NCBI GenBank assembly: GCA_017500935.1
Contig: JAFVXW010000065.1
Span: forward strand, 1-62,027
DNA length: 62,027 bases
Source of the DNA: Lachnospiraceae bacterium
Lineage (GTDB): Bacteria; Bacillota; Clostridia; Lachnospirales; Lachnospiraceae
Reading direction: 5' to 3'
The notes beneath the pieces are model-generated. The model was not told the DNA's origin and did no database searches. It saw only the letters and a list, made by a program, of their open reading frames with translations. Within the stretch, counting starts at the first letter, position 1. Each line of letters opens with the position of its first letter. Both the position numbers and the translations under genes were made by a program. This document shows positions 3,951-62,023 of this stretch, one piece after another.

Positions 3951-5846
3951 ATGAAGATTAACTTGAAAGTGTACAAATATCAATTTTTGTACAGTGTTTT
4001 ATCGATAATTAGTGTAGTATTATTAACTTGGGGCAGGACTCCGGAAATTAACTGGAATCCTGCTAAAGCATTTGTTTTGGGATTTTTTTATTTTTATGAT
4101 TATACAGAGAAATGGATGAATGGGTGGATTCTCCTTCTGGCAGTCATAACTATTTTGACTTGCAGAAAATTTGTTGATTTACATCCGTCATCATTTAAGA
4201 ATAATGTTTGTGGGATTTTGAGCTCCAGTATATCAATAATATTTTGTTTTGGAATTGTAGTTTTAAAAACAGGTGGAGTAGAAGCAGATAGTGTATCAAA
4301 GATATTGCTGCAGATTATCTCGATTATTTGGCTGGAATTCAATTTGATAGGGATAACCTGTTGGATAAGTAACAATACTTACAAATCTCAATTTCCTGAT
4401 ACTGTAATCAGTTATCGGAAAGGGTGTATCATAACGTTAATTATATTGGGGATATCCTGTATACCGATTGTTTATGCGGGCAGATATGTTTTCCCGCAGG
4501 CAGATGATTTTTCATACGGTGCGTATGCCTATCAGGCAGTAAAAAGTGGAGAAGGTATAAGTGGTGCAATGTATGCAGCAATCAAAACAGTGATAAATAA
4601 TTTTACGACATGGCAGGGAACATTTAGTTCTATTTTCTTTATGGCACTTCAACCGGGAGTATGGGGAACGGAGTGTTATCATTTGGTGCCGTTATTATTT
4701 GTTTCTATTGTGGTTTTGGCCTTTATATTGTTTTTTGTGGCGCTGTTATGCAAGGTGTGTAATGCTGATTGGGTAGAAGGAATATTGGTAGGCGGAATCG
4801 CTTCTTTGGTTGCTATTCATTTGACAGTGGCCAAGGCATCGGCTTTTTTTTGGTATAATGGAGCTGTGCATTATGTGCTTGCGTTTGCAATGACATTGCT
4901 TTTGGTGTCATTTTTAATCTTTGCAATTACTGCATGTAAAAAAAATAAAGGATTCTTTATTGTGCTTGCAGCAATAGCAGGAGTTATGTGTGGTGGAGGA
5001 AATCTTGTTTCAGCTTTATTAGGAATGATTCTTCTTGTTGGGTTAACAGGAAGTTTTTGCTTGTTTAAGAAAATACAGTATGTGAAGATTCTTATGTTTC
5101 CGGGATTAGCATTGATGGGAGCTTTTATGGCAAATGTTTTGGCACCAGGAAATTATGTGAGACAGGGAAAATCCGGAGATTACATAGAGTACGGAGCAAT
5201 CGGATCAATTTTGAAATCATTTGAAGTATGTTTGGATTATCTTTTTAATGAATGGATGGGATGGATTTGGTTTGGGATGATTGTCCTATTAATTCCTGTT
5301 TTGACTAAAATTGTACGAAGAATGCAGTTTGACTTTAAATTGCCCGGAATAGTGCTGGTTTCCAGTTATTGTTTGTTGTCTGCAATGTTTACACCACAAA
5401 TTTATGCAATTGGTTCATGGGAGATAGGACGAGTTTTAAATATTATTTATTTTATGTTTTTGATTTTAAGCATTATTAATGAATTCTATTTGATTGGATG
5501 GATTGAGAAAAAAGGTATCTGCAAGTTAGATGCGTTTGCATATAGCAAGCAAATCTATATTGGTATATTGGGTTTTATAAGTGCTTATGTTTTGATGATT
5601 TTTGTGGCAGATCCAAACAGAATCACTGGGAGTTCAGCTGCATATGCGATTTTAAGTGGTGAAGCACATGCATATGCTGAAGTTGTTGAAAGTAATATTG
5701 ATAAACTTGAGAATTCGCCGGAAGAGGATGTATTATTGGAAATGCCTCCTAAAGAGCCGGAGATTTTTTCGTCAACGGAGATTGCACCTTGGAGAGAGGG
5801 CGCTGCACAATATTATGGAAAGAGATCAACGCGTTATATTGAGTAG
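3951..5846 (+). CDS. Large polytopic membrane protein (DUF6056-like), probable GT-C glycosyltransferase
   Basis: This protein of about 630 residues has a dozen or more hydrophobic segments. After the first cluster comes FPQADDFSYGAYAY, an acidic pair in an outer loop, then a TWQGTF segment. This resembles the DUF6056 proteins of Lachnospiraceae and lactobacilli, which are suspected lipid-linked sugar transferases. The C-terminal 60 residues form an outer, acidic tail. The start is uncertain: I prefer the ATG at 3951 with GGTG upstream; an ATG at 3936 and a TTG at 3930 are in frame. It lies 22 bases after the epimerase gene, in one operon. Confidence 0.6.
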   Translation: MKINLKVYKYQFLYSVLSIISVVLLTWGRTPEINWNPAKAFVLGFFYFYDYTEKWMNGWILLLAVITILTCRKFVDLHPSSFKNNVCGILSSSISIIFCFGIVVLKTGGVEADSVSKILLQIISIIWLEFNLIGITCWISNNTYKSQFPDTVISYRKGCIITLIILGISCIPIVYAGRYVFPQADDFSYGAYAYQAVKSGEGISGAMYAAIKTVINNFTTWQGTFSSIFFMALQPGVWGTECYHLVPLLFVSIVVLAFILFFVALLCKVCNADWVEGILVGGIASLVAIHLTVAKASAFFWYNGAVHYVLAFAMTLLLVSFLIFAITACKKNKGFFIVLAAIAGVMCGGGNLVSALLGMILLVGLTGSFCLFKKIQYVKILMFPGLALMGAFMANVLAPGNYVRQGKSGDYIEYGAIGSILKSFEVCLDYLFNEWMGWIWFGMIVLLIPVLTKIVRRMQFDFKLPGIVLVSSYCLLSAMFTPQIYAIGSWEIGRVLNIIYFMFLILSIINEFYLIGWIEKKGICKLDAFAYSKQIYIGILGFISAYVLMIFVADPNRITGSSAAYAILSGEAHAYAEVVESNIDKLENSPEEDVLLEMPPKEPEIFSSTEIAPWREGAAQYYGKRSTRYIE

Positions 5847-5873
5847 AGATAGCTTAGAGTAGCGGAGGTTTTG

Positions 5874-7442
5874 ATGAATAATAAAAATAAGTTTATAAAT
5901 TTATTTGTGTCGTTTATAACATCACTTTTTCTGATCATCATGTTTGTATTAACCGGAATGGCTTTGTTTTGGCATTGTAAGGTAGATATAAACTCCTATC
6001 ATCTGGCAAGACGAGTAGAAGAGCATCGACCGATGTTATATATACTCATGGGCATGAGTGCGCTGGTGTTGTTAGTGTTCTGTTGTAAAGGAATTATGAT
6101 ACTACTTTCGCGATGTAAAGATGAAAGAAGAGGTGTATATATAACTTTAGCAATTGGAAGCGCATGTATGCTTGTTGCTTGTGCTTTTTGGATTTTGTTC
6201 AATGATTCTGTTCCAAAAAATGATCAGATTATTTTGTTTGAAGATGCGAGGATTTTGGCTGGTGTAGCTGAAGGAATTCCGGATACGTATTATTTTGGTT
6301 TGTACCCAAGAAATAAAGGGTTGTTGCTGTTTATGACATTGGCAATCAAGATTTTTGGCGATACACAGTTGGCATTCAGAATATTTAATGTCATTGCGGC
6401 TTTGGCCTTGTTTCTATTTGTTTGCCTAACTGTAGAGAAAGCATGGAAACATGCAGGAATTACAATACTTACTGCAATATTATTGGTGGTTTATTATCCG
6501 ATTGTTGTATATACGGCGTTCTTGTATGGTACATTGTTTTCCGCAGCTTTGGCTGCAGGAGGAATTTATGGAACTGTGCGGTTTTGTGAAGATAAAGATA
6601 TTGGGGGAATACTGCTGTTTGCAATTTGTTTTCCGATGGCAATCTTAATGCATCAGTCTGCATTGATTGCATGTATAGCTTCTTTGTTTTATATTATGAT
6701 TCATTTTAGTAAAAAGTATTTTATGAAAATGATTATTATGTTAGGGATGACATTATGTATATATTTGGGAAGTGGACAAATTATCGATTATATCTATGAA
6801 GCGGAAGCAGGTATTGTCCCCGTTGACGCAGTTCCAGCATTAGCATGGGTATATATGGGGATAACCTCTGAAAATGCAGATGGGGGACCTGGAGCGCAGG
6901 ATGGTTCATTTATACAGTTGTTTATGGAAAATGATTCAGATGCAAAACTAACTAACCGGGAAGCATTAAATAGAATTAAAACAGTGGTGTCAGAGTATGT
7001 TAGAGGAGAACGAGATTGGAATTTTTTTGTTGAAAAAATAAAATATCAATGGCTGGATCCGACATTTGGGGCAAGAAAAACGATAGTTACGAATGATACC
7101 AGTATAGGTGAACCAGCTAATTCTCCAAGATATCTAACTTTTTTTCATAGTGGAATACGCGATGTAATATTCCGTTTATTTATAGTATATATGGTTGTTG
7201 TTTATAGTTTGAATTTACTAGTTGGATGTAAGCAATTTGGAAAGGGTGAAACACACAAATTACATTTTTTGATTCAGATATTGTTACTAGGTGGATTCAC
7301 GTTTCAGTTGATATGGGAATCATTATCACGATATTGTTTTCCGTATTTTGTATGGCTGATTCCAGAAGCTGCATATGGAGTATATTACATGTATACCTAT
7401 ATTTCATTGCATTTAAAATCTAGAAAGAAATCTAATGTTTAA
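5874..7442 (+). CDS. Polytopic membrane protein, GT39/PMT-like GT-C candidate
   Basis: The roughly 522-residue protein has about ten to twelve membrane helices. An outer loop carries FEDARILAGVAEG, followed by YYFGLYPRNKGLLL and FGDTQLAFRIFNV. Acidic residues followed by a YP segment and an F/AFR-N helix are the hallmark of the PMT/ArnT-like GT-C fold, which takes sugar from a polyprenyl phosphate carrier. A soluble loop at about residues 310-420 contains the predicted external region. The ATG at 5874 is supported by GGAGG 5 bases upstream. It ends 32 bases before a GT2 gene that could make its lipid-linked donor (inference). Confidence 0.65.
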   Translation: MNNKNKFINLFVSFITSLFLIIMFVLTGMALFWHCKVDINSYHLARRVEEHRPMLYILMGMSALVLLVFCCKGIMILLSRCKDERRGVYITLAIGSACMLVACAFWILFNDSVPKNDQIILFEDARILAGVAEGIPDTYYFGLYPRNKGLLLFMTLAIKIFGDTQLAFRIFNVIAALALFLFVCLTVEKAWKHAGITILTAILLVVYYPIVVYTAFLYGTLFSAALAAGGIYGTVRFCEDKDIGGILLFAICFPMAILMHQSALIACIASLFYIMIHFSKKYFMKMIIMLGMTLCIYLGSGQIIDYIYEAEAGIVPVDAVPALAWVYMGITSENADGGPGAQDGSFIQLFMENDSDAKLTNREALNRIKTVVSEYVRGERDWNFFVEKIKYQWLDPTFGARKTIVTNDTSIGEPANSPRYLTFFHSGIRDVIFRLFIVYMVVVYSLNLLVGCKQFGKGETHKLHFLIQILLLGGFTFQLIWESLSRYCFPYFVWLIPEAAYGVYYMYTYISLHLKSRKKSNV

Positions 7443-29010: not shown

Positions 29011-30003
29011 ATGAAAAAAATCAGTAAAAAAACAGGAATCACCATCTTCACCACGTTGATGGTGATTCTTGGCGTGATTATCTTATGCTATTCCAATCCG
29101 CTGGCGGACCCGGCAGATGAACTGATCAAAAAGGTGATAGCCTGTGTGCTGATCGCAGCAGCGATTTTTGCCTTTATCTATTTATATGATAAAATCACGG
29201 TTCTGCCCTTTGAGTTATATCAAAACCGCCGTCTGATCTGGAAGCTGGCAAAAAGTGACTTTAAAAAACGTTACGCGGGCTCTTACATGGGTGCTTTCTG
29301 GGCGCTGGTGCAGCCGGTCGTGACGGTTGTCATGTATTATGTGGTATTTGAGGTGATCTTCCCTAACCGCCAGAAATTTGCGTCAGGCGGCGTGGAGGAT
29401 GTCCCCTTTGTATTATTTTTGGTGGCAGGTCTTGTGCCCTGGTTTTATTTTTCAGAAGCACTCACCAGTGCCATGACAGCACTTTTGGAATACAACTATC
29501 TGGTTAAAAAAGTGGTATTCAAGATCAGTGTGCTGCCTATTATCAAGATCATTGCAGCAACCTTTATTCATGCTTTTTTTGCGGCAGTGGCACTTCTGAT
29601 CGCCTGCCTGTACGGTTATTTCCCAAGCCTCTATACACTGCAGATTTTCTACTATAGTTTCTGTATGTTTGTGTTTGTACTGGCGATCAGCTATACCACA
29701 TGCTCTGTGGTGATCTTTTTCAGAGACTTACAGTCCATCGTCAACATCTTTTTGCAGGTGGGCATGTGGGCAACTCCCATTCTCTGGAATATCAACCAGT
29801 TTGATGAAAAGATCCAGATGTTTTTGAAGATCAATCCGCTGGTTTATATCGTGGAGGGCTACCGCAGTTCTATTTACGGACAGCAGTGGTTCTGGGAGGA
29901 TTTTTATTCCACGGTTTACTTCTGGGTGATCACTGTGGTGCTCTTTATTGGAGGCGCGGTGATCTTCAAGCGCCTGAAGGTGCACTTTGCGGATATTATG
30001 TAA
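29011..30003 (+). CDS. Wzm-type ABC transporter permease for polysaccharide export
   Basis: The 330-residue protein has an N-terminal extension with two helices (residues 8-65) and then the standard ABC-2 permease: AKSDFKKRYAGSYMGAFWAL, FLVAGLVPWFYFSEAL and a last helix run ending FKRLKVHFADIM. The RY..S.LG..W motif and six core helices identify TagG/Wzm-like exporters of undecaprenyl-linked polymers. The partner ATPase follows after an unusually long non-coding gap. The ATG is 4 bases after the rfbC stop. The two extra helices are not part of the usual E. coli Wzm fold. Confidence 0.9.
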   Translation: MKKISKKTGITIFTTLMVILGVIILCYSNPLADPADELIKKVIACVLIAAAIFAFIYLYDKITVLPFELYQNRRLIWKLAKSDFKKRYAGSYMGAFWALVQPVVTVVMYYVVFEVIFPNRQKFASGGVEDVPFVLFLVAGLVPWFYFSEALTSAMTALLEYNYLVKKVVFKISVLPIIKIIAATFIHAFFAAVALLIACLYGYFPSLYTLQIFYYSFCMFVFVLAISYTTCSVVIFFRDLQSIVNIFLQVGMWATPILWNINQFDEKIQMFLKINPLVYIVEGYRSSIYGQQWFWEDFYSTVYFWVITVVLFIGGAVIFKRLKVHFADIM

Positions 30004-30179
30004 GCGGCGGAGGGTGAGGACCGCCGCCGGGCGTGAGGTTTTCTTTCGGGGACGCTTTCGCTCCGAAAAAACGCAGCGGACGCTAAGCTCGGCAAAACCT
30101 CGCTAAGCGCCGGCGTTTTTCCACGGCCCCTCAATCAAACCTCACGCCCGGCGGCTCCATCAACACCTCAGCCGCTTAC
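30000..30179. repeat. Long nested palindrome 1 in the wzm-wzt gap
   Basis: The outer arms GTAAGCGGC (30000-30008, overlapping the wzm stop TAA) and GCCGCTTAC (30171-30179) are perfect complements. Inside lies a perfect 18-base inverted repeat, CCGCCGGGCGTGAGGTTT (30024-30041) with its complement at 30137-30154, around a 95-base core that itself has GC-rich stems. No protein-coding frame with a ribosome site is present. Confidence 0.8.
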
Positions 30180-30184
30180 AAAAA

Positions 30185-30217
30185 AATGCGCAATCGCTCG
30201 CTGGCGCATTGCGATTG
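30185..30217. repeat. Two overlapping alternative stems after palindrome 1
   Basis: AATGCGC (30185-30191) can pair with GCGCATT (30204-30210), and CAATCGC (30191-30197) with GCGATTG (30211-30217). The arms are in a-b-a'-b' order, so they compete or make a pseudoknot. Confidence 0.45.
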
Positions 30218-30360
30218 TTTCACAGCCTATGTGGATATTTGGCAGCAGATTGCTTCACTGCCTTTGGCTGTTTTGGCAGTAGTTTGCTGAGACAGCACTG
30301 ACAAATTGATTCAGATGGTTGTATATGACAATGTAAATTATATTATTAAAAGGCATTCCC
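30218..30360. other. Non-coding spacer with degenerate GGCAG repeats
   Basis: About 140 bases with no plausible gene. TTTGGCAGCAGATTGCTT and TTTTGGCAGTAGTTTGCT (30238-30255, 30270-30288) form an imperfect direct repeat. The rest is AT-rich. Confidence 0.4.
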
Positions 30361-30419
30361 GAATCCGCTAAAGCGGATTCGAAAGCAGCACACGATTCGC
30401 TTCGCGAATCGGTGCTGCT
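30361..30419. repeat. Two tandem perfect hairpins in the wzm-wzt gap
   Basis: GAATCCGCT-aa-AGCGGATTC spans 30361-30380. Four bases later AGCAGCAC and CGATTCGC (30384-30400) pair with GCGAATCG and GTGCTGCT (30404-30419) around a TTC loop, with one unpaired A. Confidence 0.8.
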
Positions 30420-30438
30420 AAGGCATACAACCTATATA

Positions 30439-30472
30439 GAGCCGGGAGGCGGCTTTGCCGCCAATCCGGTTC
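30439..30472. repeat. GC-rich hairpin in the wzm-wzt gap
   Basis: GAGCCGG (30439-30445) pairs with CCGGTTC (30466-30472), and inside it GGCGGC-ttt-GCCGCC (30448-30462). An internal loop separates the two stems. Confidence 0.75.
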
Positions 30473-30523
30473 TCGCAGCATAGAAAATTATATGCCGGAA
30501 ACGCAGAGGAATATGACACCTCA

Positions 30524-30716
30524 CCGGCAGAGAGAGACATTTGAGCAGTCTGGGCATTTGCAGTGAGAATTTCGATCGAGGGATGGATTTTGCCCGCAGA
30601 GCACGTTATGTTTGAGCGAAGCGAGTTAACGTGCTCTGCGAAAAGGGCAAAATACAGCCGTCGATCAAAGAAATTCCACGAAAATGCCGACCTGCGAAAA
30701 GGGCTCTCTCTGCCGG
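30524..30716. repeat. Long nested palindrome 2 before wzt
   Basis: The 13-base arms CCGGCAGAGAGAG (30524-30536) and CTCTCTCTGCCGG (30704-30716) are perfect complements. Between them the halves stay largely complementary, including GAATTTC/GAAATTC, GATCGA/TCGATC, ATTTTGCCC/GGGCAAAAT and a perfect 13-base core GCAGAGCACGTTA (30596-30608) with TAACGTGCTCTGC (30627-30639). The 18-base loop contains GAGCGAAGCGAG. The element ends 48 bases before the wzt start. Confidence 0.85.
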
Positions 30717-30764
30717 CGGGAAGCCATCACACTTCCCCTTGCGCTCCCGGCCATGAGGAAGCCT

Positions 30765-32135
30765 ATGGAAAGAGAACTCGCCATCCATGTGGAAGGCATT
30801 GACAAAGTATACAAACTGTATAACCGCAACCGTGACCGTCTGATCGAGTCTCTGGGCCTGTCCAGAAAGCCTCGTTCCACCCAGCACTACGCGCTTAAAA
30901 ATGTCAATCTCGACATCTACCGCGGCGAAACTGTGGGCATCATCGGCACCAACGGTTCCGGCAAATCCACCCTTTTGAAAATCATCACCGGTGTTTTATT
31001 CCCCACTGCGGGAGAACTTCAGGTCAACGGCCGCATTTCTGCGCTGCTTGAGCTTGGTGCCGGTTTTAATATGGAATATAACGGCATTGAAAATGTATAT
31101 TTAAACGGCACCATGATGGGCTTTTCTGAGAAGGAAATCGACGAAAAGCTGCCGGAGATCCTTGAATTTGCAGATATCGGGGAGTATGTCCATCAGCCGG
31201 TAAAAACCTATTCCAGCGGCATGTTTGTGCGGCTGGCTTTTGCGGTTGCCATCAATATCGATCCGGAGATTCTGATCGTAGACGAAGCATTATCTGTCGG
31301 TGACGTGTTCTTCCAGGCAAAATGCTACCGCAAATTTGAAGAATTTAAGAAAAAAGGCAAGACCATCCTGTTTGTCAGCCATGATCTGAGTGCCATCAGC
31401 AAATACTGTGACAGAGCGATCCTGTTAAATAAAGGTACCAAGCTGGCAGAGGGTACACCCAAGGATATGATCGATGCCTATAAGCAGGTGCTGGTGGGAC
31501 AGTATGAGACACCAAAGGCAACCGAAAATGTTCCCGACTTAACGGACGATCCCGATGTGCGCAAGGCACTGGACAAGGGAAATGACTCAAAAGACGCATC
31601 TGCAAAAGAGAACGGAACAGATCAGGCCGCTGAGAAAAACAGCACAGCAGAAGGTACAAAGAATGCCGGTGCTCAGAAAGAGGCAGACACCTTGGAATAC
31701 GGCTCCGGCAAGGCAAGCATCACAGAATTCTACTTAACAGACCACAAGGGAGTCCGCACCACTGCCATCCTAAAGGGCAATACCTTTACCATGCACATGA
31801 AGGTTAAGATCCATGAAGATCTGGAAGCGCCGATTTTTGCATTCTCCATCAAGAATGTAAAGGGTGTGGAGCTGACCGGCACCAATACCATGTTTGAAAA
31901 AAGCTTTTTGGAGAGCGTCAAAGCGGGCGAAACCAAGGAGATCACCTTTACCCAGCGTATGCTTTTGCAGGGCGGTGACTATCTGGTATCTCTGGGCGTG
32001 ACCGGCTATGAAAAGGATACTTTTACGGTATACCACAGACTCTATGATGTGCTGAGCCTGACAGTAGTATCTGATAAAAATACAGTTGGTTATTTTGATA
32101 TGGAATCAACCATCGAAGTAAAGGATGTTTTATGA
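30765..32135 (+). CDS. Wzt-type ABC transporter ATPase with C-terminal carbohydrate-binding domain
   Basis: The 456-residue protein has the ATPase in residues about 5-250: Walker A GTNGSGKST, signature YSSGMFVRLAFAVA, Walker B ILIVDEALSVGD and the switch His in FVSHD. A charged Lys/Glu/Asp/Ala linker (about 265-325) leads to a beta-sandwich of the Wzt_C type (ITEFYLTDHKGVR…). In E. coli O9a this domain binds the chain-end modification. The ATG at 30765 has GAGGAA 4-5 bases upstream; in-frame starts further upstream fall in the palindrome. It overlaps the next gene's ATG by four bases. Confidence 0.92.
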   Translation: MERELAIHVEGIDKVYKLYNRNRDRLIESLGLSRKPRSTQHYALKNVNLDIYRGETVGIIGTNGSGKSTLLKIITGVLFPTAGELQVNGRISALLELGAGFNMEYNGIENVYLNGTMMGFSEKEIDEKLPEILEFADIGEYVHQPVKTYSSGMFVRLAFAVAINIDPEILIVDEALSVGDVFFQAKCYRKFEEFKKKGKTILFVSHDLSAISKYCDRAILLNKGTKLAEGTPKDMIDAYKQVLVGQYETPKATENVPDLTDDPDVRKALDKGNDSKDASAKENGTDQAAEKNSTAEGTKNAGAQKEADTLEYGSGKASITEFYLTDHKGVRTTAILKGNTFTMHMKVKIHEDLEAPIFAFSIKNVKGVELTGTNTMFEKSFLESVKAGETKEITFTQRMLLQGGDYLVSLGVTGYEKDTFTVYHRLYDVLSLTVVSDKNTVGYFDMESTIEVKDVL

Positions 32136-46422: not shown

Positions 46423-48111
46423 ATGAATTACGAGAACAATCAGAATGAATCTGATCAGAATATGCAGCAGAATGAAATGCACCACAATGATGAAAACAGA
46501 GGCAGCTGGCAGAACGAAGGCCGTCAGAATGAGAACCGTCAGGGTGATGAACGTGGAAGCTGGCAGAACGAGAACCGTCAGAATGATGACAGGGGCGGCT
46601 GGCAGAACGAAAGCTGGGGAAGAGCGCCTGGGCAGGATAACCAGAATTACTATGAGAGATACCGCTCCTCCAGACAGGATCAGAATTACGGATACAGACA
46701 AAATGACCAGTATGGGCAGCAGTATGGAAATAACAGCAGAAACGGCAGCTGGAATGGTTACGAACAGCCTGTACAGGAACAAAAAACACCCGGAAAGCGC
46801 AGAAAGGGTCTGCGTATTGCCGTGGCAGTTTCTCTGGCAGTGATCTTTGTTGCGTTTTGTGTCGGTGTCAGCTGGCTGGCAGTTGACAGCATCAAAACCT
46901 CCCTGTCTGCAGCAGTGGAAGAAGTGACAAAGCCTGCAGAAGTGCTTCCCGAGGCAGAAAGTGCAGAGCAAGTGCAGCCTGCACCCGCTGAAAAGATCAA
47001 AGAAGCGGAAGAAATTCAGAAAAGTGTACAGGTTACAGCTGTCGTAACAGATGTGACCGATGTGGTGGATAAGGTAATGCCTTCCTGTGTTTCCATCACC
47101 AATATGAGCAAACAGGAGATTCAGAGCTTCTGGGGTCAGACTTATTTTCAGGACAGCGAGTCCAACGGCTCCGGTATCATTATCGGACAGAATGAAACAG
47201 AGCTTTTGGTCGTAACCAATAATCATGTGGTGGAAGAGGCTGACACTTTGTATGTGCAGTTTATCGACGGACAGTCTGCGCAGGCCCTTGTAAAGGGAAC
47301 GGATGCTTCCGTGGATCTGGCGGTACTGGCAGTTTCCCTTGCTGAGATTGCAGAAGAAACAAAAGAGCAGATCTGTATTGCCCAGATGGGTGATTCCGAC
47401 AGCTTAAAGATCGGTGAACCTGCCATTGCCATCGGCAATGCGCTGGGCTACGGACAGTCCGTAACAACTGGTGTTATCAGTGCTTTAAACAGAACACTGG
47501 AAGTCAGTGAGACCGGTGCCAGCAATGCGCTGATCCAGACCGATGCAGCGATCAATCCCGGTAACTCCGGCGGCGCGCTGCTTAATATCAACGGTGAAGT
47601 AATTGGCATCAATTCCAGCAAGATTGGTGACTCTCTGGTGGAAGGTATGGGATATGCGATCCCGATCTCCAGTGCAAAACCGATCATTGAAAATCTGATG
47701 AACAGAGAGACCCGCGTTAAGGTAGGAGAAGAAGAAAGAGGTTATCTGGGAATTTCCTGTATCAATGTAACTGCGGAGATTTCAGCGACCTATGACATGC
47801 CCGAAGGTATCTTTGTGGCACAGGTTTATGAAGGAACCGGTGCTGACAGGGCAGGACTTGTACGCGGCGATATCATTACCGAATTTGATGGAAATGCCGT
47901 TTCCAGTCAGGCAGAGATGACTGCACTCATGCAGTATTACAAGGCCGGTGACACTGTGGAGATCACGATCATGCAGGGCAGTGCCAGCGGATATCAGGCA
48001 AAGAAGGTAGAGCTTACTTTAAGCAGTCTGGAAGAGATGAACGCAGCGTCTGAGGCACAGCAGGAGCCGCAGCAGCCCAGCGGCAGATCAGGATACTACA
48101 GATTCCCTTGA
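46423..48111 (+). CDS. HtrA/DegP-like membrane serine protease with N-terminal Asn/Gln-rich repeats
   Basis: The 562-residue protein has a cytosolic tail rich in Asn, Gln, Arg and Trp with repeats such as RGSWQNEGRQNENRQ, a single helix (about 128-152), then a trypsin-like domain with triad His268 (VTNNHVVEEAD), Asp298 (ASVDLAVLAVS) and Ser382 (INPGNSGGALLN), and a C-terminal PDZ domain (about 445-540). It degrades or refolds misfolded proteins outside the membrane. The ATG at 46423 sits 7 bases after GGAGG; the ATG at 46417 is too close. Its stop codon is inside one arm of a long palindrome. Confidence 0.93.
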   Translation: MNYENNQNESDQNMQQNEMHHNDENRGSWQNEGRQNENRQGDERGSWQNENRQNDDRGGWQNESWGRAPGQDNQNYYERYRSSRQDQNYGYRQNDQYGQQYGNNSRNGSWNGYEQPVQEQKTPGKRRKGLRIAVAVSLAVIFVAFCVGVSWLAVDSIKTSLSAAVEEVTKPAEVLPEAESAEQVQPAPAEKIKEAEEIQKSVQVTAVVTDVTDVVDKVMPSCVSITNMSKQEIQSFWGQTYFQDSESNGSGIIIGQNETELLVVTNNHVVEEADTLYVQFIDGQSAQALVKGTDASVDLAVLAVSLAEIAEETKEQICIAQMGDSDSLKIGEPAIAIGNALGYGQSVTTGVISALNRTLEVSETGASNALIQTDAAINPGNSGGALLNINGEVIGINSSKIGDSLVEGMGYAIPISSAKPIIENLMNRETRVKVGEEERGYLGISCINVTAEISATYDMPEGIFVAQVYEGTGADRAGLVRGDIITEFDGNAVSSQAEMTALMQYYKAGDTVEITIMQGSASGYQAKKVELTLSSLEEMNAASEAQQEPQQPSGRSGYYRFP

Positions 48112-48230
48112 TAAGGGTGTGAAAAAGGAGTCTGGAGAGTCCTAAGTTTGAAACCACGTGTGCAAAGCACACAAGAGGTTTCAAACTTAATGACTCTTCA
48201 GGCTTCTTTTGCAAACAGTATCAAGGGAAT
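48102..48230. repeat. Nested palindrome 3, overlapping the htrA-like stop codon
   Basis: The arms ATTCCCTTGATA (48102-48113, including the TGA stop of the protease gene) and TATCAAGGGAAT (48219-48230) are perfect. Inside are imperfect arms and a perfect 13-base stem TAAGTTTGAAACC (48143-48155)/GGTTTCAAACTTA (48177-48189), with GTGTGC-aaa-GCACAC at the apex (48158-48172). It could also terminate transcription, but T tracts are short. Confidence 0.85.
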
Positions 48231-48244
48231 GGAAAGTTTCCAGA

Positions 48245-48317
48245 GGGAGGATAAAAACACAAAACCTCTTGTGTGCTTGCACACGTGGTTTTGTGTTTTG
48301 CCTCCCGGTTGTTTTTT
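48245..48317. repeat. Palindrome 4, apex is the inverted copy of palindrome 3
   Basis: GGGAGG/CCTCCC (48245-48250, 48301-48306) encloses AAAACACAAAACC (48254-48266)/GGTTTTGTGTTTT (48287-48299) and GTGTGC-tt-GCACAC. The apex AAACCTCTTGTGTGC… reads as the reverse complement of the apex of palindrome 3 apart from one loop base. GGTTGTTTTTT follows, so it may act as a terminator for the protease gene. Confidence 0.8.
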
Positions 48318-53948: not shown

Positions 53949-53955
53949 GAAATTT

Positions 53956-54012
53956 AAGGCAAAAAAAAGAATCACTCATGCGGTTTGCAGAGTGATTCTT
54001 TTTTTTGCCTTA
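53956..54012. terminator. Strong bidirectional terminator
   Basis: A 22-base perfect stem, AAGGCAAAAAAAAGAATCAC and TC (53956-53977) with its complement (53990-54011), ends convergent units. The stop of the reverse oxidoreductase gene is inside it. Confidence 0.95.
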
Positions 54013-58020: not shown

Positions 58021-58094
<74 letters not shown>

Positions 58095-61413: not shown

Positions 61414-61488
<75 letters not shown>

Positions 61489-61496
61489 TAGAACAT

Positions 61497-61567
61497 GCAG
61501 GTGTAGTTCAATGGTAGAACACCAGCCTTCCAAGCTGGATACGTGGGTTCGATTCCCATCACCTGCT
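61497..61567 (+). tRNA. tRNA-Gly (anticodon TCC)
   Basis: Acceptor GCAGGTG/CACCTGC, loop CTTCCAA between CCAGC and GCTGG, T loop TTCGATT. Confidence 0.95.
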
Positions 61568-61645
61568 TTGGCTGTGAGCGAAAGCAAGCAGTCATAACAG
61601 GACAAGTCCTGTTGGTTGTCATTACCAGGCGATGCGCCTCAATGT

Positions 61646-61719
<74 letters not shown>

Positions 61720-61752
61720 TTGGAAAGATTATGGAAACATAATCTTTCGCAT

Positions 61753-61827
61753 GGTGGGTATAGCGCAGTTGGTTAGCGCGCCAGATTGTGGCTCTGGAGG
61801 CCGAGGGTTCGAATCCCTCTATCCACC
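61753..61827 (+). tRNA. tRNA-His (anticodon GTG)
   Basis: Acceptor GTGGGTA/TATCCAC with an extra 5' G at 61753 opposite the final C, the His identity mark; anticodon loop TTGTGGC (GTG). Confidence 0.95.
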
Positions 61828-61831
61828 CTTT

Positions 61832-61903
61832 TGGGCTATCGCCAAGCGGTAAGGCACAGGACTTTGACTCCTGCACTCGCTGGTTCGAATCCAGCTAGCC
61901 CAG
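61832..61903 (+). tRNA. tRNA-Gln (anticodon TTG)
   Basis: Acceptor TGGGCTA/TAGCCCA, anticodon loop CTTTGAC (TTG) between CAGGA and TCCTG. Confidence 0.95.
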
Positions 61904-61950
61904 TTTGTTATGTCTACGGAATGCAGAAGCGTCCGTTTGTTTTATATTAT

Positions 61951-62023
61951 GGAGCACTAGCTCAGCCGGTAGAGCACCTGACTTTTAATCAGGTTGTCGG
62001 GGGTTCGAATCCCCCGTGCTTCA
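61951..62023 (+). tRNA. tRNA-Lys (anticodon TTT)
   Basis: Acceptor GGAGCAC/GTGCTTC (one G-T pair), anticodon stem CCTGA/TCAGG with loop CTTTTAA (TTT). It ends 4 bases before the window edge, so the cluster may go on. Confidence 0.95.

Follow-up and report, generated by a model that had tools for sequence, protein, structure and literature searches.

The terminal repeats of MITEs are normally common to all copies of an element. REPs are 20-40 bp long according to the accessible portion of PMC3733652, in which no Firmicutes terms were found. The accessible portions of two further articles describe arm homogenization and spacer inversion as the hallmark of template switching between inverted repeats (PMC8604942), and list, among candidate structured RNAs of the human microbiome, 250 of 3161 as palindromic and 230 as predicted terminators (PMC8040213). 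No description of a Lachnospiraceae family of the kind reported below was found in the papers searched, including the accessible portions of PMC12306157, PMC13155455, PMC8604942 and PMC8040213.

We propose that the gap between the polysaccharide export genes wzm and wzt of a Lachnospiraceae bacterium is probably an insertion-prone intergenic site holding at least two kinds of palindromic element, of which palindrome 1 would represent a dispersed Lachnospiraceae family with arms homogenized at the DNA level. Coordinates refer to the window, the whole stretch of 62,027 nucleotides that was analyzed.

The gap between wzm and wzt

The ABC-2 type polysaccharide export permease gene wzm lies at 29011-30003 (+ strand; ORF and Pfam ABC2_membrane), and the gene for the ATPase with a Wzt C-terminal domain, wzt, at 30765-32135 on the same strand (Pfam ABC_tran and Wzt_C), its start codon being most likely the ATG at 30765 behind GAGGA, as judged by comparison with the starts of relatives. 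The gap between them (30004-30764) measures 761 nt, whereas only 4 nt lie upstream of wzm and there is a 4-nt overlap downstream of wzt, in agreement with the preliminary description of an unusual gap in tightly packed surroundings. That nearly all of the gap can fold was also confirmed: the whole region folds far beyond dinucleotide shuffles (z = −10.9 on the + strand and −17.4 on the − strand, 20 shuffles each), and its three parts, namely palindrome 1, a cluster of smaller hairpins and palindrome 3 (computed on 30513-30727), give z values of −9.0, −8.3 and −10.7 with 200, 100 and 200 shuffles, respectively, none of which folds as well.

The nested palindrome said to take in the wzm stop is palindrome 1 (29996-30183, − strand), in which the arms pair as 29996-30013/30166-30183 (89%) and 30023-30054/30124-30155 (84%), with the stop codon inside the outermost arm. 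Its core, approximately 100 nt behind the wzm stop, holds an A-tract, a GC-rich stem and a T-tract (30066-30120) in a terminator-like order readable on both strands, as seen in the sequence and in the family statistics, and a side hairpin, GAGC-GAAA-GCG, with a GNRA loop (30053-30063, − strand) that recurs in the aligned copies. The smaller hairpins (30185-30512) include three at about 30360-30381, 30384-30419 and 30439-30474; all three that had been announced are present, and "perfect" applies in part, as they are perfect or near-perfect. Palindrome 3 (30524-30716, + strand) has the 193 bp and the perfect 13-bp outer arms (30524-30536/30704-30716) attributed to it earlier and ends 48 nt before the ATG at 30765, while its perfect inner arms (30595-30608/30627-30640) are 14 bp long rather than 13. 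The arm test gives 93 aligned positions with 77% complementarity for this palindrome (locus L346), and its tip is the motif ATGTTTGAGCGAAGCGAGTT (30608-30627, + strand), which recurs in other genomes.

No family of Rfam release 15 reaches its gathering score in the gap; relaxing the thresholds brings up ten matches below that score, of which eight are to microRNA hairpin families. The only + strand ORF of at least 80 aa that reaches into the gap is an in-frame upstream extension of wzt, and on the − strand one 93-aa ORF crosses the end of the gap. In a simple scan covering 29900-30850, no sigma-70-like promoter turned up where 0.9 would be expected; the scan flagged a single terminator-like site, on the − strand, against an expectation of 1.2.

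A dispersed family of palindromes in Lachnospiraceae

Comparison of the gap with its own genome and 60 relatives by blastn located the palindrome-1 core in several congeners, and it was by blastn, before any model existed, that relatives of palindrome 1 were first found. The covariance model R1 was built from an alignment of 23 copies, the window copy among them, after L017 and L126 and then L019 and L025 had been dropped; certain matches lacking a clear motif did not enter the alignment. R1 matches the core and innermost arms of the window copy, itself a training sequence, at 30035-30140 (− strand; 83.8 bits, E 2.2e-18). At E ≤ 0.01 there are matches in 17 of 61 genomes and none in the 24 of these that belong to other families of the order. 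The window's own genome has one R1 place (64 of 737 candidates scored), while the congeners G003 and G007 have 66 and 69 (150 candidates scored each; 62 of the 69 G007 copies were fetched). In a survey of 200 Lachnospiraceae genomes, one per genus, 83 had R1 matches (E ≤ 1e-4); since no more than 19 candidates were scored in any genome, copy numbers there are lower bounds. The covariance search of other genomes put forward in the preliminary description has returned copies elsewhere, with covarying pairs, so that the outcome named there as refuting, a lack of both copies and compensatory changes, did not arise.

Family-1 copies are approximately 180-310 bp long with private arms, and they adjoin many genes other than wzm and wzt. 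Eighteen copy-bearing loci gave nothing over the Rfam threshold save a tRNA elsewhere in L018, and in a relaxed scan the elements draw mainly sub-threshold microRNA-hairpin matches. Carriage by plasmids or phages was considered and rejected: one copy (148 nt) had no blastn match to either, and the core pattern is present in four viral contigs, none of whose four fetched stretches is matched by R1 (E ≤ 0.01).

Anatomy of the family-1 core

The core is an asymmetric, structured sequence of approximately 75-107 nt set inside long GC-rich inverted arms. In the alignment of 112 matches, of which 110 are distinct, pairing holds in 89.8% of cells. Two-sided changes are seen in 34 of the 37 pairs and amount to 495 cells versus 124 in shuffles, slid registers being far worse; the alignment was fitted to R1 and so leans towards the pairing of the model. 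Three weak matches (25-27 bits, on the opposite strand of known copies) are inside these 112 and outside the counts over 109 rows. The fixed parts are the A-tract, a CGCCGG/CCG-CT-GCG stem with a CU bulge, the T-tract, the GNRA side hairpin, and CTTAGCGAGG/CGAGCYTAG with a tandem 5′-CGAG-3′ (G·A) motif. The side-hairpin loop is GNRA in 109 of 109 rows (GCGA 52, GAGA 21, GGGA 20, GAAA 9, GCAA 4, GGAA 3), and its position 2 is never T. Hairpins of the GCGAAGC type are very stable as DNA too, and hence this motif does not tell RNA from single-stranded DNA.

At least five A among the eight positions before the stem are found in 95 of 103 scorable copies and at least five T among the eight after it in 89, so that each strand offers a GC hairpin followed by a T-tract, the layout of a bidirectional intrinsic terminator. 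The core could serve as a putative bidirectional terminator or 3′-end hairpin. Counting against this are the G014 copies (L019, L024), in which the A and T tracts are swapped, the pairing of the T-tract with the A-tract within the core, the lack of enrichment of T-runs beyond the outer arms (18 of 143 versus 11 of 143 at a control place), and the failure of the simple scan, which allows loops of 3-8 only, to flag the palindrome-1 core.

Mostly private arms that change together

Arm length in G003 is 30-114 bp for 65 of 66 copies, with a median of 70.5 bp; the median complementarity is 94%. Each of the 63 G003 copies with arms of at least 45 bp matched its own other arm, whereas arms matched between copies (E < 1e-3) in only 43 of 1953 pairs, compared with 1883 of 2145 pairs for cores. 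A stricter test of 119 copies from two genomes left 28 of 3481 within-genome pairs, touching 22 of the 119 copies (reversed-arm control, 0). Arm identity between copies falls from 0.85 beside the core to 0.25-0.31 beyond 35 bp, and the privacy is incomplete in that the innermost 15-30 bp are common to subfamilies. Left-right complementarity, which decreases with distance from the core, is at least 0.93 in each 10-bp bin up to 60 bp when gaps are allowed, a measure that counts aligned positions only and leans high; the ungapped profile drops to 0.13-0.36 beyond 10 bp owing to a bulge. The outer arms have a GC content of 0.71 and 0.73, versus 0.55 in the adjacent flanks. As judged from these alignments, the arms are mostly private to their locus and approximately 95% Watson-Crick paired.

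Between G003 and G007, 36 copy pairs share flank sequence. Both flanks are shared in 30 of them, and at these 30 loci the core is oriented alike in 21 and inverted in nine. Recognizable arms are kept in 22 of 30 copy pairs with a shared flank; separately, 22 of 30 G003 copies that have no flank partner in G007 lack a recognizable donor arm among the G003 and G007 copies. Where the core type is the same (14 orthologous pairs), two-sided changes affect 45 of 793 base pairs, versus 6.5 expected if the sides were independent, and 39 of these 45 are Watson-Crick in both species, while one-sided changes (54) outnumber two-sided ones. Seven orthologous pairs with different core types have 105 two-sided changes in 431 base pairs, versus 32 expected; pooling all 21 gives 150 two-sided and 79 one-sided changes, although the same-core set is the cleaner one, as seven of the pooled pairs differ in core type. 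Among eight orthologous alignments, four have conserved flanks around largely different arms. At two loci (C57/C4 and C48/C15) the arms are conserved and the core differs.

Mismatches read on the core strand are nearly balanced, with 65 G·T and 57 A·C among 3603 pairs in G003 and 53 and 62 among 3690 in G007. When tandem contexts are oriented by transcription with a codon-usage gene caller, there is a moderate excess of G·U over A·C (76 versus 45, p 0.006), which is absent from convergent copies (38 versus 39) and amounts to 60 versus 57 in tandem contexts under a cruder gene orientation. Some RNA-level selection or transcription-linked mutation may possibly lie behind the tandem excess, and transcription-linked cytosine deamination would produce an excess of the same sign. 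The joint changes of the arms, the absence of G·T bias on the core strand and the flipped cores are together signs of homogenization at the DNA level, which we infer to have acted on these arms; recombination between the arms could be an alternative way to flip the core. As the two-sided changes of family 1 occur without a G·U bias on the core strand, compensatory changes in a bacterial hairpin are alone no proof of RNA function.

Genomic setting and element-free sites

The cores lie outside called genes in 127 of 128 cases (codon-usage gene caller), and of 143 gene 3′ ends, 75 have the outer arm edge within 15 nt, versus 5 of 101 gene 5′ ends. Copies occupy 35 convergent, 15 divergent, 66 tandem and 12 incomplete contexts; since all adjacent gene pairs in the copy loci, flanking pairs included, comprise 46 convergent, 23 divergent and 142 tandem ones, the convergent excess is no clean result.

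At G003:C47 there are 240 nt between matched flanks versus 49 nt in G007, the latter with a short GC hairpin, and the site measures 9, 116, 103, 130 and 126 nt in G008, G009, G010, G012 and G001, for which the respective G003 spans are 268-357 nt. At G003:C6:11025 the G007 copy has the same middle arms, an inverted core and an extra hairpin at the core tip, and the site measures 68, 129 and 66 nt in G010, G009 and G008. Five synteny-guided comparisons found other, often short, hairpins at the element-free site, one of them terminator-like and having 8 bp (GGGCAGAC/GTCTGCCC) in common with the mid-arm of the filled site. These five come from a set of nine, three of which lacked one or both flank matches, while the ninth (G007 C11:45981 versus G003 C22) was left out on account of a contig end and an inverted self-match. 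The element-free sites could reflect turnover at gene ends rich in hairpins, or else elements inserting into the tips of hairpins, and mobility of the elements is what the dispersal and the empty sites together suggest.

No mobilizer, transposition event or terminal target duplication was found, the duplications in an unsystematic look at boundaries that blur into stop codons. The Y1 transposase (PF01797) is absent from the carriers G000, G002, G003 and G023 and present in G010, a genome without an R1 match; a RAYT mobilizer was rejected, as Y1/RAYT genes do not track copy number. Loss of SbcD as a permissive factor was likewise rejected, SbcD being present in 14 of 15 genomes, high-copy ones included.

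A second family at the same site

The 20-nt tip of palindrome 3 recurs exactly in G027 and G035 (twice in each) and near-exactly in G073 and G135; it crowns a long palindrome in G027, G073 and G135 and a weaker hairpin in G035 (arm test 5). Among 299 Lachnospiraceae genomes, 19 contain the 17-mer TTTGAGCGAAGCGAGTT, at 54 places in total. For the arm test 30 of these places were fetched, the window's own included, and, with one at an edge, 29 were scored: in 24 of them the 17-mer caps a palindrome whose arms measure at least 40, the median of all 29 being 97, whereas random positions gave per-locus medians of 3-5.5 and a single maximum of 33. Palindrome 3 of the window, with TTTGAGCGAAGCGAGTT at the tip of a long palindrome, has the defining arrangement of this family 2. 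Arm complementarity in those 24 loci is 0.70-0.92, below that of family 1, and arms are common to copies within some genomes and seldom to copies of different genomes (12 of 276 pairs overall). An 18-mer of the family occurs in 57 viral contigs, and arms of at least 40 were found in 0 of the 56 scored, which means that the motif by itself is not diagnostic; its reversed-pattern control is unclean, as the sequence is nearly mirror-symmetric. A search of the window's own genome with 48100-48310 returned no further clear copies.

By these sequence comparisons palindrome 3 is an independent family, similar in style to family 1. The earlier suggestion of palindromic mobile elements piled up at one site therefore holds as to the pile-up and fails as to a single family, there being at least two.

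The wzm-wzt site in relatives

Eighty wzm orthologue loci were compared, and the gap to wzt could be measured in 79: it is at most 100 nt in 55, 111-518 nt in 13 and more than 1.5 kb in 11. In the ten closest relatives (82-88% identity) it measures 518, 35, 2383, 87, 40, 26, 86, 219, 46 and 111 nt. The two long gaps that were inspected hold genes (two in L029, one in L050), and the medium gaps of L027, L034, L043, L044/L095, L084 and L104 fold into large hairpins of other sequence. R1 has four matches across the 80 loci, every one outside the wzm-wzt gap; in Eisenbergiella tayi DSM 26961 a 76-bit copy (L043:960-1066) lies 2.9 kb upstream of wzm.

The short gaps and the absence of R1 from the gap at all 80 loci indicate that palindrome 1 is no conserved part of this operon, and the other hairpins and genes in relatives' gaps indicate that the site tolerates insertions and that the content of the window is specific to its lineage. 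The gap is thus a lineage-specific pile-up of palindromic elements, which are perhaps terminator-like. These are probably passengers, and a reduced read-through into wzt, that is, a putative polar effect, is conceivable.

Weighing the explanations

For family 1, the sequenced copies display dispersal, a conserved core, mostly private arms that change together, both core orientations and proximity to stop codons. On the reading we favor as probable, elements would accumulate at a permissive intergenic site between wzm and wzt, template switching or recombination between the arms would homogenize the arms and flip the spacer, and the family-1 element would be a small mobile or parasitic hairpin that is tolerated after stop codons. 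The core might instead be a single-stranded DNA hairpin substrate of a transposase or integrase, comparable to REP or attC, that inserts into hairpin tips so that the outer arms are older layers. The bulged, asymmetric hairpin, the drop in arm complementarity away from the core, the G007 copy with an extra hairpin at the core tip at a shared locus, the 8 bp common to an element-free hairpin and the mid-arm of the filled site, and the short hairpins at other element-free sites all lend this some plausibility. We regard it as possible though doubtful, in that the 8-bp sharing may be chance, the other element-free sites inspected lack arm sequence, and no enzyme was found, Y1_Tnp being absent from G003 despite its 66 copies. 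Only the core might be mobile, with each copy gaining its own arms in place, through successive rounds of template switching, until coding sequence on either side halts their growth. This would account for the 22 of 30 copies without a donor arm, the differing arms between conserved flanks (four of eight alignments) and the arms that end at stop codons, yet we consider it unlikely, given outer arms that are richer in GC (0.71-0.73) than the flanks (0.55) and the inspected element-free sites without arm sequence.

If family 1 were instead a structured RNA, the core would act as RNA, either as a cis element of mRNA 3′ ends or as a trans-acting molecule, with the arms stabilizing it. The strict core and its GNRA loops, the mRNA-strand excess of G·U among tandem copies (76 versus 45) and the 17 G·T versus 7 A·C in the core helix (p 0.06) point in that direction. 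However, tandem copies have no orientation preference with respect to transcription (++ 31, −− 35), arm mismatches are symmetric on the core strand, cores are inverted at 9 of 30 loci, and G·U is rare in the core helix (17 versus 2239 Watson-Crick cells), which together leave this explanation with a small share of the probability. Smaller by far is that of a specific regulator of the wzm-wzt operon, which the preliminary description had offered as a structured RNA setting the level of ATPase relative to permease. The location between two genes of one transporter, the very stable folds and a core of terminator-like layout 100 nt past the wzm stop would suit such a regulator, but gaps of at most 100 nt in 55 of 79 relatives, the lack of a family-1 match in the wzm-wzt gap of any of 80 loci and the occurrence of the same element beside many other genes make it very improbable. 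An operon-specific regulatory RNA was rejected on this gap comparison, and a conserved permease/ATPase regulator is not supported by the relatives' sequences.

Comparison with known systems

Family 1 is a structured, covarying element present in 83 of the 200 Lachnospiraceae genera sampled, with as many as 69 places located in a genome and without an Rfam match, and it offers a natural orthologous series in which arm homogenization, spacer flipping and tip growth of long palindromes are measurable. REP, BIME and REPIN elements with RAYT resemble it, as far as the accessible literature describes them, in being dispersed intergenic palindromes with bulged hairpins, whereas family-1 copies are approximately 180-310 bp long with private arms, and G003 has no RAYT. 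The GTAG foot tag of REPs of the GTAG superfamily is not a family-1 feature (GTAG 20, TTAG 37, other 38 and unscorable 14 of 109 rows). MITEs are likewise short, non-coding, multi-copy elements with inverted repeats, but the outer arms of family 1 are mostly not common to its copies, and family 2, with arms common within some genomes, is nearer to MITEs. Bidirectional intrinsic terminators have in common with family 1 the A-tract, GC stem, T-tract and site behind stop codons, while family 1, for which a terminator role is putative, is distinguished by its 30-114-bp arms, GNRA side hairpin, G·A motif and dispersal. The palindromic candidates from the human microbiome also have structures predicted on both strands, and the four examples described in the accessible portion of PMC8040213 are mostly or entirely from Bacteroidetes; overlap of the full candidate set with family 1 may exist. 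Quasipalindrome correction by template switching is like family 1 in its homogenized arms and inverted spacers, but the known cases in the accessible portion of PMC8604942 combine short arms with spacers a few bases long, in contrast to the conserved spacer of at least 75 nt and the median arm of 70 bp in family 1.

Sequences between wzm and wzt in relatives

The spacing between wzm and wzt is approximately 1.5-1.7 kb in ten related loci (L050, L051, L054, L058, L062, L064, L074, L075, L082, and L094), several of which carry the label Acetatifactor, and in L050, the only one of these similar-sized gaps to be read, positions 4987-6552 are occupied by a single ORF of 521 residues. In another relative (L029, 2173-4555) the gap is filled by two unrelated genes, which by eye are a large ORF and one resembling an acetyltransferase, and this pair is a further insertion at the wzm-wzt site. 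In the gaps of L084 and L097 a GCGAGCGAGATG...GGAATCGAGCTGCGGCA unit is repeated in tandem next to long perfect hairpins.

The 18-mer TGTTTGAGCGAAGCGAGT of the family-2 motif is present in 57 viral contigs (L381-L437) without long palindromic arms. Its viral occurrences fall into a few repeating contexts, some of which, as judged by eye, resemble open reading frames.

SbcD in congeners

The match to SbcD falls into two stretches in two congeners, on contig C172 of G002 and at 13830-14714 on contig C6 of G003, while no split was seen in a third (G007). The split matches suggest that this palindrome-cleaving nuclease carries an in-frame insert in high-copy genomes.

Other features of the window

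A lone tRNA gene is located at 58021-58094 and a cluster of six at 61414-62023, the end of the window. An intergenic inverted repeat at 53955-54012 has 23 bp perfect arms and a 12-nt loop. Two palindromes lie side by side at 48102-48299 and share an almost identical 30-nt core in mutually inverted orientation, although their outer arms are unlike, and this combination of shared core and differing arms is in the style of the wzm-wzt gap elements.
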